Position numbers and translations under genes: made by a program
Shown: positions 49,614-57,000 of the stretch, in pieces
Position numbering within the stretch: the first letter of the stretch is position 1
Layout of the letters: the number at the start of each line of letters is the position of its first letter
The notes under the pieces: model-generated
What the model was told of the DNA's origin: nothing
Databases searched by the model: none
What the model saw: the letters and a program-made list of their open reading frames with translations, nothing else
Assembly: GCF_001636615.1 (NCBI RefSeq)
Contig: NZ_LGEK01000001.1
Location: 1 to 64,000, forward strand
DNA from: Mucilaginibacter sp. L294
Lineage (GTDB): Bacteria > Bacteroidota > Bacteroidia > Sphingobacteriales > Sphingobacteriaceae
Reading direction: 5' to 3'
Length of the DNA: 64,000 nucleotides

Positions 49614-50036
49614 TTAACTGCGCATAGGGTATTTACCCTTAAGCGAAATAATAAAGTTTAAAGGCAGTGCAGGTTGCATGATGGTGTGAGTGCCGTTAAT
49701 AGTTGGTTGCTGGTCCTTATCGGGTATGCCGTTGGTGCGTAACACACCTACTCCGTTTTGCGCATTCTGTGCATCATTAATTGTGGGCTTTTCTGCACCT
49801 GCTTTTTGGCCCAGCCTGTAATAGGCGAGCCCATGGCCTTGCCCCATACCCACCGGGCCACGGCCGCGCATATCGGGCAGGTTAAAATATTCCGCATCGC
49901 CGCCATAGGTGTTGCCAAGTATGGTATATAACGCTTCATTACCCCTTATAGGTAGCTTTTGCCCGTTACAGGATGCCCAGCCATTAGGTGGGGTTGCAAA
50001 AGGGACTATTCTTATCTCGCCAATATATGGATCCAT
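49614..50036 (-). CDS. Phage-tail-collar/MdpB-like protein 2
   Basis: 140 residues, with 'YIGEIRIVPFATPPNGWASC', 'EALYTILGNTYGGD', 'FNLPDMRGRGPVGMGQG', and the tail 'LPLNFIISLKGKYPMRS'. It shares the same domain layout as its two neighbours, 17 nt from each, so an operon is very likely. No signal sequence. Confidence 0.88.
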   Translation of the reverse strand: MDPYIGEIRIVPFATPPNGWASCNGQKLPIRGNEALYTILGNTYGGDAEYFNLPDMRGRGPVGMGQGHGLAYYRLGQKAGAEKPTINDAQNAQNGVGVLRTNGIPDKDQQPTINGTHTIMQPALPLNFIISLKGKYPMRS

Positions 50037-50053
50037 GATTTTTTGTTTTAACG

Positions 50054-50440
50054 TTAAGGTTTTGCGCCCCTGTAGGCAATAATAAAATTAATAGTAAGCG
50101 CGGGCTGCGTATTAACGGCAGCTGTTTCGGGCGCGCGGCTGTAGGTGGCAGGTTCTTCGGCGCGGCCGGTGTTGTTACGCAGCGTAACAAACTCATCTCC
50201 TACGGGCTTGCCTATAGGGTAATCAGTTAAATTTTCGCCCTGGCCAAAATGCATGGGTAAGCGGCCCCGCATATCCGGCAGTTTAAAATTATCCTTACCA
50301 TCGCCGCCGTAAGTGGTGCCGATAGCTTCATACAGGTCGGGGTACGAGTATTTGTTAAATTCCTGCCCCTCGCAAGGGAACCAGTATTCGGGCGCAAAGT
50401 TGAAGGACACCATCCGTATTTCTCCAATAATTGGGATCAT
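50054..50440 (-). CDS. Phage-tail-collar/MdpB-like protein 1
   Basis: 128 residues, first gene of the triplet: 'IGEIRMVSFNFAPEYWFPCEG', 'DLYEAIGTTYGGDG', 'FKLPDMRGRLPMHFGQG', 'PALTINFIIAYRGA'. The 132-nt gap to the divergently transcribed Crp-type gene probably contains both promoters; no clean -7 box was identified. Confidence 0.88.
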   Translation of the reverse strand: MIPIIGEIRMVSFNFAPEYWFPCEGQEFNKYSYPDLYEAIGTTYGGDGKDNFKLPDMRGRLPMHFGQGENLTDYPIGKPVGDEFVTLRNNTGRAEEPATYSRAPETAAVNTQPALTINFIIAYRGAKP

Positions 50441-54500: not shown

Positions 54501-54647
54501 ATGGAGCCCATACATCAGGCATCACATACATTAAAACCTGTTCCTGCAATTGCTTTGCAGACAGGAAATGGTGTGCCCGTTGCTATGATAGCCGGCTCTA
54601 AACTCACCTACGCTTTCCTTAAAACAAGTAAGGACTTTATTAACTAA
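54501..54647 (+). CDS. Possible 48-residue small ORF upstream of the GltB-like gene
   Basis: An ATG ORF of 48 codons starts MEPIHQASHTLKPVPAIALQ and ends KTSKDFIN, in a 400-nt spacer with no other gene. It is followed closely by a GCCCCA/TGGGGC hairpin without a T run (54647-54674). There is no Shine-Dalgarno and the -7 box is weak (TACTTTTT, 54479-54486). No family recognised. It could equally be non-coding; the region 54376-54413 also contains a hairpin (AAAACCACCT facing AGGCGGGTTTT). Confidence 0.35.
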   Translation: MEPIHQASHTLKPVPAIALQTGNGVPVAMIAGSKLTYAFLKTSKDFIN

Positions 54648-54717
54648 GCCCCAGCCATTGTTGGTTTTGGGGCCGGTCACAAAACAGTTGTTTTTGTTAT
54701 CTCATTAAAGCTTACTT

Positions 54718-55926
54718 ATGAATTTTTCTGCATCCCGTACCTGGGCAGGTGTCGGTTTTATACTGCTTTTTTTAATAAATGCAGGCCTTGTTATCACAGG
54801 CTTATTTTTCAATTATCTCTGGTGTACCATTGGGGGTATCTTGCTGGCTTCGGTGCAGATTTTGCTGCATGGGCAGTTATTTAGCAGGCAACAGGTTTTA
54901 CAAGAAAGCCTTTTATCAATAGGTGATTTGGAACTGGTTATAGGGCGGTCGCAAACAAATACACCCTTAAGTATCTCAACCGGTAACGGGCCAAATTTTG
55001 ATGCCGGCTACCGGTATGTGCAATGCTGTGATACTACTTTACAAATGGCCGGCAATATGCTTTATACAGAAATTGGTGCCGGCAATTGCCGCATGCCCTA
55101 CCGCATGAACCTGTTAAATATAGCATCATTAAACACTGCTACCTTTGATAAAGGGTCGGTACTGGCGTTTTCGAGGAGTGCAAAAATGAGTGATTGTGCC
55201 CTCAACACCGGCGTGCTGGGCATTGTGCCCGAATTGCTGAGAGGTGGGAGTGACCTGGTTTGGCGCATGGACCGTTTGGAAGCCTTTTACCGAAATGCCG
55301 ATGGTTCATTTAACGAAACCCTGTTTAAAAAGGCGGCTAACCGGCCTTATATTAAAATGATAGAGGTTAGGATAAGCGCTGCCCACTTTTTACCTGATGT
55401 TTCAGAGATCTCTTTAAAATGTTTCGTCAACTTCCTGGAGCGGCTCAAGGTACTGTCGGGCGGTAAGCCCATAGGTGTTTGTTTGGCTGTGGCCGATCAT
55501 GAGCTATTTACAAGGCTGTGCCGCGTTATGGCCGATAGTGTTGTATACCTGGACTTTGTGACGGTGGATAGTGCATCACATAATAGGCCTGTTACAGCCT
55601 TATTTACAGCAATTGATGCTGTACGGTTTGCCATTGCTAAATATAAATTACCAACAAAGATCATTGCCTCTGGCGACCTGGTCAAGGAGCGTGACATACT
55701 ACAGGCCATTGGGCACGGGGCGCATGCCTGCTATAGCGTTCGCCCTTTTCAGGCTTCCCTTGGTGCTGCCCGGGGGCTTGTTAAACCCACAACCAATAGT
55801 AAAGTAGCGGCTATTACAGCCTTTCATCGAAATACGCTGGCTGCCACTTTTAGGTTGATAGATGCCTGCACGGCTCAACAAGCCACGGCAAATAAACAGG
55901 CCCTGCTAAATTCTGAATTAAATTAA
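54718..55926 (+). CDS. Degenerate, membrane-anchored glutamate-synthase-like (GltB-type) protein
   Basis: A 402-residue protein. Two N-terminal membrane helices (about 10-31 and 33-53) are followed by a region colinear with FMN-binding glutamate synthase proteins: 'SRSAKMSDCALNTGVLGI', 'LLRGGSDLVWRMDRLEAFYRNADGSF', 'KMIEVRISAAHFLPDVSEI', 'FLERLKVLSGGKPIGVCLAV', 'YLDFVTVDSASHN', 'KLPTKIIASGDLVKERDILQAIGHGAHACYSVRPFQASLG', 'AFHRNTLAATFRLIDAC' (positions 150-390). Family members are ~530 residues. Missing here are the GAKPGHGG loop, the EGGTGAAP loop and the cysteine cluster for the iron-sulphur centre, so catalysis is unlikely. Next gene is 21 nt away. Confidence 0.75.
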   Translation: MNFSASRTWAGVGFILLFLINAGLVITGLFFNYLWCTIGGILLASVQILLHGQLFSRQQVLQESLLSIGDLELVIGRSQTNTPLSISTGNGPNFDAGYRYVQCCDTTLQMAGNMLYTEIGAGNCRMPYRMNLLNIASLNTATFDKGSVLAFSRSAKMSDCALNTGVLGIVPELLRGGSDLVWRMDRLEAFYRNADGSFNETLFKKAANRPYIKMIEVRISAAHFLPDVSEISLKCFVNFLERLKVLSGGKPIGVCLAVADHELFTRLCRVMADSVVYLDFVTVDSASHNRPVTALFTAIDAVRFAIAKYKLPTKIIASGDLVKERDILQAIGHGAHACYSVRPFQASLGAARGLVKPTTNSKVAAITAFHRNTLAATFRLIDACTAQQATANKQALLNSELN

Positions 55927-55947
55927 TTTTTAACCCATCTATCTGAT

Positions 55948-56328
55948 ATGATAACTCAACCCTTAATAATGCCTGCAAGGGAGCATGAACTGCTAAAGAA
56001 GCATTGTGCCCATGCAACCCTTTGCGATTACAACTTGAACAAACTTACCACCGAACTTAAGAATGCCAGTATTATACCCAAAAGCCAGTTGCCGCATGAT
56101 GTGGTATGCCTTAGTGCTGCAATCAAATTCAGGGAGGTGAATAGTGGGAAACACTACGCTTTTAGTATTGTGGAACCACATGAAGCAGATATCCGGCAGC
56201 AAAAAATGTCAGCGCTGGCGCCTTTATCTATTGCCTTGTTGGGCTACCGTAAAGGGGCGCTTGTTGATTGGCAGATGCCCGGCGGGGTAATGACTTTTGA
56301 AATATTAGAAGTTGTACAGCATGCCTGA
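55948..56328 (+). CDS. Rnk/GreA-GreB-family elongation-factor-like protein
   Basis: A 126-residue protein. The C-terminal ~75 residues match the GreA/GreB-Rnk C-terminal domain: 'LPHDVVCLSAAIKFREVNSGKHYAFSIVEPHEADIR' region (about 50-85), 'MSALAPLSIALLGYRKGALVDWQMPGG' (about 88-114). The N-terminal part lacks the long GreA coiled coil that enters the polymerase channel, as in Rnk. It should bind RNA polymerase or a related target. It is co-transcribed with the GltB-like gene (21 nt) and the following membrane protein (38 nt). Confidence 0.82.
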   Translation: MITQPLIMPAREHELLKKHCAHATLCDYNLNKLTTELKNASIIPKSQLPHDVVCLSAAIKFREVNSGKHYAFSIVEPHEADIRQQKMSALAPLSIALLGYRKGALVDWQMPGGVMTFEILEVVQHA

Positions 56329-56366
56329 AAACGAGTTGCCAATTGTGAATATTTAACCCTTAACTT

Positions 56367-56864
56367 ATGAAACAAATTATAGAAAACAGCCTCATAGCAG
56401 GTACGCTATTTATATTAATTGTATTGCCATTTATAATACTTGGCCGCAAACTAAAGAAAAAACGGGAAGCCGGGATGTTAAACAAGCTGAACGAGGCCGC
56501 CCGGGGTTATGGTTTAAAGCTAACCCGTTATGTAGCGATCAATAATAATTTGATTGGCTGGGACAGGGAGAACGCCGCGCTACTATTTGCATTGGATGAG
56601 GAAAGGCCGGAATACATAAAGCTTGATGGTGTTGGCCGGTGCTACACGTTAAAAAAAATGAATGGCCGCGCGGTGCGTTCAATAAGTTTGGAACTGCAGG
56701 ACAGAAATGGCAGGCTGATAAACAGCATCCCTTTTTACCGGCAGTTTACTGATAGCGAAATGACCTTAAAAAAAGCGCTTAAGTATGCTGCTGAGTGGGA
56801 ATTGATCGTTGCAGCCGATATTAAGGAGCGCGGTAATAAATTAGTTAATTTGCAAAGGGCGTAG
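56367..56864 (+). CDS. Membrane-anchored protein of unknown function
   Basis: A 165-residue protein with one N-terminal membrane helix (about 8-26, AGTLFILIVLPFIILG) followed by basic residues (RKLKKKRE) and a soluble domain ('YVAINNNLIGWDRENAALLFAL', 'IKLDGVGRCYTLKKMNGRAV', 'LINSIPFYRQFTDSEMTLKKALKYAAEW'). It is predicted to face the cytoplasm. No family recognised. It is the last gene of the 54.7-56.9 kb cluster, ended by a strong terminator. Confidence 0.75.
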   Translation: MKQIIENSLIAGTLFILIVLPFIILGRKLKKKREAGMLNKLNEAARGYGLKLTRYVAINNNLIGWDRENAALLFALDEERPEYIKLDGVGRCYTLKKMNGRAVRSISLELQDRNGRLINSIPFYRQFTDSEMTLKKALKYAAEWELIVAADIKERGNKLVNLQRA

Positions 56865-56891: not shown

Positions 56892-56928
56892 TAAAAAAGC
56901 CTTTAACACTATGTTAAAGGCTTTTTTG
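56892..56928. terminator. Bidirectional terminator between the cluster and tRNA-Arg
   Basis: AAAAAAGCCTTTAACA pairs perfectly with TGTTAAAGGCTTTTTT around CTA. Both directions carry a T run, so it ends the plus-strand operon and the minus-strand tRNA transcript. Confidence 0.9.
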
Positions 56929-57000
56929 TGTTCTCGATGAGATTCGAACTCATATCGACGGCTTCGGAGGCCATAATTCTATCCATTGAACTACGAGAAC
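56929..57000 (-). tRNA. tRNA-Arg (anticodon CCG)
   Basis: 72 nt on the minus strand. The acceptor stem GTTCTCG / CGAGAAC is perfect; the anticodon arm ATGGC-CTCCGAA-GCCGT gives CCG, reading CGG codons. The T-arm GTTCGAAT motif is present and the discriminator base is A. The CCA end is not encoded. The first base is at 57000. Confidence 0.93.

Follow-up and report, generated by a model that had tools for sequence, protein, structure and literature searches.

The window analysed here, a stretch of 64,000 nucleotides from Mucilaginibacter sp. L294, carries an operon of three co-directional open reading frames, spaced by 21 nt and 38 nt, which encode a degenerate member of the glutamate synthase family (hereafter GltS'), a Rnk-like protein and a third protein with one transmembrane (TM) helix, and which are preceded by a leader small ORF (sORF) and a hairpin, H1 (Table 1). 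The first-pass annotation of this region started at 54501 and thereby took in the leader start codon, but passed over the leader ORF and its hairpin. At the other end, an A/T-flanked hairpin probably terminates the operon ahead of a tRNA-Arg gene. Among named species, M. rigui has the closest counterpart of the locus, with a GltB-like protein that is 87% identical. The operon is real and conserved, and it is undescribed within what could be searched: as the first-pass annotation had supposed, a search of libraries and papers brought up no system of such composition, and PADLOC gave no match at the locus. Elsewhere in the window, two adjoining ORFs on the minus strand (49614-50440) resemble phage tail-collar or Mdp-type proteins.

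Table 1. Features of the operon and its surroundings in the window, with the positions of a second Rnk-like gene in relatives
Feature	Position	Strand	Remarks
Leader sORF, 48 codons, MEPIHQASHTLKPVPAIALQTGNGVPVAMIAGSKLTYAFLKTSKDFIN*	54501..54647	+	C-terminal SKDF followed by I/V/L kept in relatives, N-terminus variable
Hairpin H1, GCCCCA...TGGGGC, abutting the leader stop	54648..54673	+	-16.1 kcal/mol, z -2.6
GltS', 402 aa, glutamate-synthase-family, hydrophobic segments ~12-31 and 34-52	54718..55926	+	Membrane-anchored, catalytically degenerate
Rnk-like protein, 126 aa, GreA/GreB C-terminal family	55948..56328	+	PF01272 5.2e-17
Third protein, 165 aa, one N-terminal TM helix	56367..56864	+	No family match
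Symmetrical A/T-flanked hairpin, probable terminator	56893..56927		-20.8 kcal/mol, z -8.8
tRNA-Arg(CCG)	56928-57000	minus	
Rnk2 (second Rnk-like gene, in relatives)	L036:3980-4390; L038:7370-7870; L086:7443-7892; L087:7418-7867; L089:4494-4898; L090:4515-4919		

The assignment of the first gene product to the glutamate synthase fold, as initially proposed, holds in terms of homology to the intact family but not of direct recognition, the window protein giving no match to PF01645 at E<=1 and not reaching the Pfam gathering score for glutamate synthase. More distant members of the GltS' clade score 27-44 bits with PF01645, and the profile of the clade matches intact FMN-binding glutamate-synthase-family proteins of ~520-550 aa at 1e-72 to 1e-105. 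One such intact homologue, L044, is encoded in the same genome, matches PF01645 at 2.4e-83 and can be aligned to the Azospirillum GltS. These profile comparisons indicate that the barrel domain of GltS' shares descent with the glutamate synthase family. In the alignment with the intact homologues, the GAKPGHGG and GGEGGTG loops, which we take to serve FMN and 2-oxoglutarate in GltS, are missing or replaced in GltS', and the three cysteines aligned to positions 1102, 1108 and 1113 of the Azospirillum enzyme, which presumably hold its 3Fe-4S cluster, are lost in every degenerate member aligned. The loss of the loops and of the iron-sulphur cysteines had been read correctly from the window, and, judging by these residues, GltS' cannot perform glutamate-synthase chemistry. 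The two membrane helices, for which gain and retention had both been considered, are real; since the intact homologues carry the same two N-terminal hydrophobic segments, they are ancestral and kept rather than gained. As for the claim that the barrel was kept, homology to the intact proteins speaks for it and the barrel is probably retained, but the structural modelling adds little, the AlphaFold2 (AF2) model built from five sequences being poor (pLDDT 51) and the TIM-barrel matches obtained with it in Foldseek being weak.

The degenerate form is present at 16 loci with the same losses; window-type proteins are ~402-404 aa long and those of distant relatives mostly ~464-474 aa, while a seventeenth protein of 384 aa (G194) is an uncertain outlier kept apart from these loci. 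The many missing catalytic residues, together with a frameshift in the M. rigui Rnk-like gene, could be taken to mean that GltS' is a decaying pseudogene of glutamate synthase. This idea, to which we give almost no credence, is contradicted by the identical losses at the 16 loci, by a tree in which a single branch (support 100/99) parts the degenerate from the intact proteins, and by a dN/dS of 0.13-0.19 for GltS' in the window clade, where the Rnk-like gene is at 0.04-0.10, the third gene at 0.12-0.24 and three neighbouring control genes at 0.02-0.08. An intact synthase at this place in relatives, which had been named beforehand as the sign of decay, was not seen: syntenic relatives carry the same degenerate gene of ~402-404 codons, and unlinked relatives at ~30% identity show the same losses, the Rnk-like gene still lying downstream of GltS'.

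The purifying selection acting on GltS' would also suit a remodelled pocket with a new enzymatic activity instead of a regulatory role. To evaluate the residues concerned, ten intact homologues were compared with nine degenerate proteins. Among the 153 positions invariant in the intact set, 21 are retained throughout, among them K213, E216, D279 and those of the GKP-G segment, which is in line with such an activity, whereas 55 are lost in all nine degenerate proteins. The absence of both loops and of the cluster cysteines argues in the same direction as these losses, and the only new invariants of the degenerate proteins are R175 and E324, apart from S152 and a further three that lie within the TM region or close to it. 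A new enzyme is therefore considered unlikely, and a non-catalytic, regulatory GltS' is preferred.

The second gene product was rightly described as a Rnk/GreA-like protein adjacent to the GltB-like one. It belongs to the GreA/GreB C-terminal family (PF01272, 62 bits against a cut-off of 26.9), but is named Rnk-like rather than Rnk because its best NCBIfam model, PRK05753, scores 78.5 bits, below the cut-off of 109. In the PDB, the family profile matches 2pn0 (2.8e-18) and Rnk itself (3bmb, 5.6e-18), and in PHROGs the protein matches only an unnamed family. Rnk/GreA family proteins bind RNA polymerase, and by analogy the window protein may act on this enzyme too; a review from 2015 (PMC4598747) lists Rnk as a protein of unknown function.

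At 15 of the 16 GltS' loci, which lie in unrelated neighbourhoods, the Rnk-like gene is found directly downstream of GltS' at a distance of 7-104 nt, and the pairing is kept down to 25-33% identity; in G012 the Rnk-like gene is present but unlinked from GltS'. In a family sample of 301 genomes, with Rnk-like genes called at E<=1e-20, all 12 GltS' carriers possess one, compared to 63 of the 289 non-carriers (hypergeometric estimate ~3e-8, phylogeny being ignored). The distance matrices of the two proteins are correlated (r 0.84-0.90, Mantel p 2e-4), although co-inheritance of neighbours inflates this correlation. One could object that the two genes do not act together and are inherited jointly only as neighbours, given that GltS' is patchy, occurring in 15 of 400 genomes of the order, and that Rnk-like genes preceded by a leader often lack GltS'. 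Such a reading is quite improbable in our view: it sits badly with a pairing maintained over such divergence and in such different contexts, with its separate repetition in two operons of one genome (G770), and with the fact that GltS' carriers always have a Rnk-like gene. Besides, a few intact GltS-family homologues also adjoin Rnk-like genes (L022, L087, L091, L092); this gene order suggests that the two genes may have been paired before GltS' degenerated.

Several arrangements in relatives deserve mention here. In distant relatives, the first Rnk-like gene is often followed by a second, more diverged one (Rnk2, Table 1), which is absent from the window type. In G770, the region L087:1061-9150 pairs an intact GltS-family gene with a Rnk-like one and also contains the third gene twice, preceded by two leader elements; two further leader elements accompany a degenerate GltS' operon there, and a window-type operon is located elsewhere in this genome (L088). 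Finally, the frameshift in the M. rigui Rnk-like gene (L033:8122-8559) falls in a run of A and splits the gene, with intact genes on both sides, and may stem from a sequencing error as well as from a recent loss.

The third gene product is indeed membrane-anchored, by a single N-terminal segment, and has no family match in Pfam-type or NCBIfam searches. Its AF2 model (pLDDT 61) predicts a cytoplasmic domain of seven strands and a C-terminal helix, for which a PH-like topology is possible at low confidence, and this model gives weak matches in Foldseek. The proposed co-occurrence of the trio stands for GltS' and the Rnk-like gene but not for the third gene, which is 61-87% identical among syntenic relatives, is found at 8 of the 16 GltS' loci (with only ~20 bits at one of them, L036) and occurs in other contexts elsewhere in the genus, being the loosest member of the set. 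In other Mucilaginibacter (L066-L071), this family mostly lies behind a gene of ~115-130 aa with an apparent signal peptide, and at L120 a Rnk-like gene stands between an upstream gene of this signal-peptide type and the third protein downstream.

The most conserved feature of the locus is the leader sORF. A search of all loci yielded 52 distinct leader elements. Of these, 49 keep frame 0 open across their last 47 codons, whereas frame 1 is closed in 49 and frame 2 in 51; 39 have an in-frame ATG at 47-49 codons upstream of the stop, compared to ~2% per slot elsewhere. The encoded C-terminus reads G-Y/F-S-F-Q-x-S/T-S-K-D-F-I/V-N/K, then stop; K, D and F are present in 52/52, partly as set by the search pattern, and S in 51/52. 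At fixed residues the synonymous codons alternate (AAG 27 and AAA 25; AGC 24 and AGT 22), with GAC in 52/52. Taken together, the open frame, the position of the start and the synonymous variation show at the sequence level that the leader is coding, its translation being predicted. A Bacteroidetes -7 motif (TAnnTTTG) precedes the leader ATG in 9 of 47 cases compared to 3.3% in shuffles, which is suggestive only.

Immediately after the leader stop, in nearly all elements, starts the GCCC...GGGG hairpin. Since the H1 core is nearly invariant, covariation is nearly absent, apart from 14 double changes at pair 9-39. A terminator-like hairpin overlaps H1 in 10 of the 52 elements, and is for this reason not claimed as a general mechanism. 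In relatives, the elements occur in one to three tandem copies, and GltS' genes may be preceded by two or three.

The placement of the leader was further assessed with a 23-nt pattern, AARGAYTTYNTNNANTARGCCCC, searched in 201 family genomes with a reversed control. It gave 29 matches in 24 genomes and none in the control, and each of the 29 has a Rnk-like gene or a GltS' operon downstream of it on its own strand, so that the placement is exclusive among the pattern matches. The last leader codons and the hairpin recur upstream of every GltS' gene, and the link of the leader to the Rnk-like gene does not depend on GltS': among 23 examined Rnk-like loci that have no GltS' next to them, 20 carry the element, the stop being out of frame at one of these, whereas all 7 canonical greA loci lack it. 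In 178 genomes from across the phylum, the pattern matches only in the two that belong to the Sphingobacteriaceae. Two matches in viral contigs sit in unrelated phage-type genes and were discarded as chance. Rfam gave no match in the window or in seven loci, the known rnk/greA leader RNAs included; the leader was not found by the Pfam-type search, and the literature searched, with partial coverage, holds no description of such an element in this family. As far as searched, this leader ORF-hairpin family is therefore undescribed and the most novel part of the operon.

How the leader operates can be viewed in two ways. It could be a free-standing small protein acting in trans, for instance by binding the Rnk-like factor or GltS', with the hairpin serving only as an mRNA stability or terminator element. 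The length, kept near 48-49 codons, a weaker inner conservation (Q at -30 in 18 of 47, an aromatic residue at -24) and the diverged tandem copies, which resemble a small gene family, would fit such a protein. Nevertheless, the N-terminal two thirds of the leader vary almost freely, and this part is barely constrained since five close relatives give a pN/pS of 0.47-1.0 over all 48 codons of the window-type sORF; the hairpin abuts the stop in nearly all elements, and the element keeps the same genes directly behind it. A role in trans is accordingly a minority view, albeit one to be taken seriously.

The reading that we favour, while holding it tentatively and at somewhat less than an even chance, is that the leader controls expression of the Rnk-like gene in cis and that GltS', tethered to the membrane and without catalytic function, regulates the Rnk-like factor. 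The transcript would begin with the ~48-codon leader ORF, with its fixed C-terminus and its stop abutting the GC-rich hairpin. Most likely, by analogy with TnaC, a ribosome held or slowed at SKDF-I/V-x-stop would cover the 5' arm of H1 and thereby open the hairpin, and the changed state of H1 would alter expression of the downstream genes as in TnaC-type termination arrest, which is known to control an operon (PMC8429421). In Proteobacteria and Firmicutes, rnk and greA are often under attenuation (PMC2965389), which makes a leader on a Rnk-like gene plausible. GltS', which descends from a membrane-anchored FMN-binding enzyme of the glutamate synthase family, would most likely regulate the Rnk-like factor from the membrane, either by binding a ligand or as a scaffold, and presumably through contact with it; the Rnk-like factor would in turn act on RNA polymerase, and the third protein, with its TM helix, would be an accessory part at the membrane. 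A more specific version, which we regard as speculative and rather improbable as a whole, is a metabolite-sensing circuit of the Sphingobacteriaceae in which the tethered barrel binds a small molecule and controls the Rnk-like factor in the secondary channel of RNA polymerase, while the SKDF-I/V leader peptides sense the translation state or a metabolite and gate expression of this factor. The first-pass annotation had likewise proposed that a small molecule may bind in the old active site of GltS', which would then signal to the Rnk-like protein.

An inactive membrane synthase next to a Rnk-like gene, with a tiny leader gene at a hairpin, suggests an unstudied transcription switch in Mucilaginibacter, which are soil bacteria, and their relatives. 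By tying a Rnk-like factor to a conserved pseudoenzyme and a leader ORF, the operon would make the signals to which these factors respond directly accessible to study. In addition, the leader would represent an undescribed family of cis-regulatory peptide or RNA in Bacteroidota that can be found by a single 23-nt pattern.

Compared to known systems, GltS' is homologous over the barrel region to the membrane-anchored FMN-binding glutamate-synthase-family proteins (PF01645, COG0069-like; L044), with which it shares the two N-terminal hydrophobic segments and the absence of the amidotransferase domain; it differs by the missing GAKPG and GGEGGTG loops and Fe-S cysteines, and by the Rnk-like gene that follows it, a neighbour that only a few intact homologues have. 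The Rnk-like protein resembles E. coli Rnk (3bmb) and GreA/GreB in combining a C-terminal GreA/GreB domain with a short N-terminal part, and its 126 aa are close to the 136 aa of E. coli Rnk, but unlike these proteins it has GltS' and a leader ORF as operon partners and lies below the PRK05753 cut-off. In Proteobacteria and Firmicutes, greA and rnk, genes of the same family, likewise have 5' leader elements (PMC2965389; GraL, PMC6829880), yet these are described as terminator/antiterminator RNAs, whereas the window leader is a conserved ORF ending at a hairpin and has no Rfam match. Finally, while no sequence similarity to TnaC was seen, and while the abutting hairpin and the tandem copies are features of this leader family absent from the TnaC description (PMC8429421), the leader shares with TnaC-type arrest peptides a short ORF, conserved C-terminal residues and a putative regulatory point at the stop codon.
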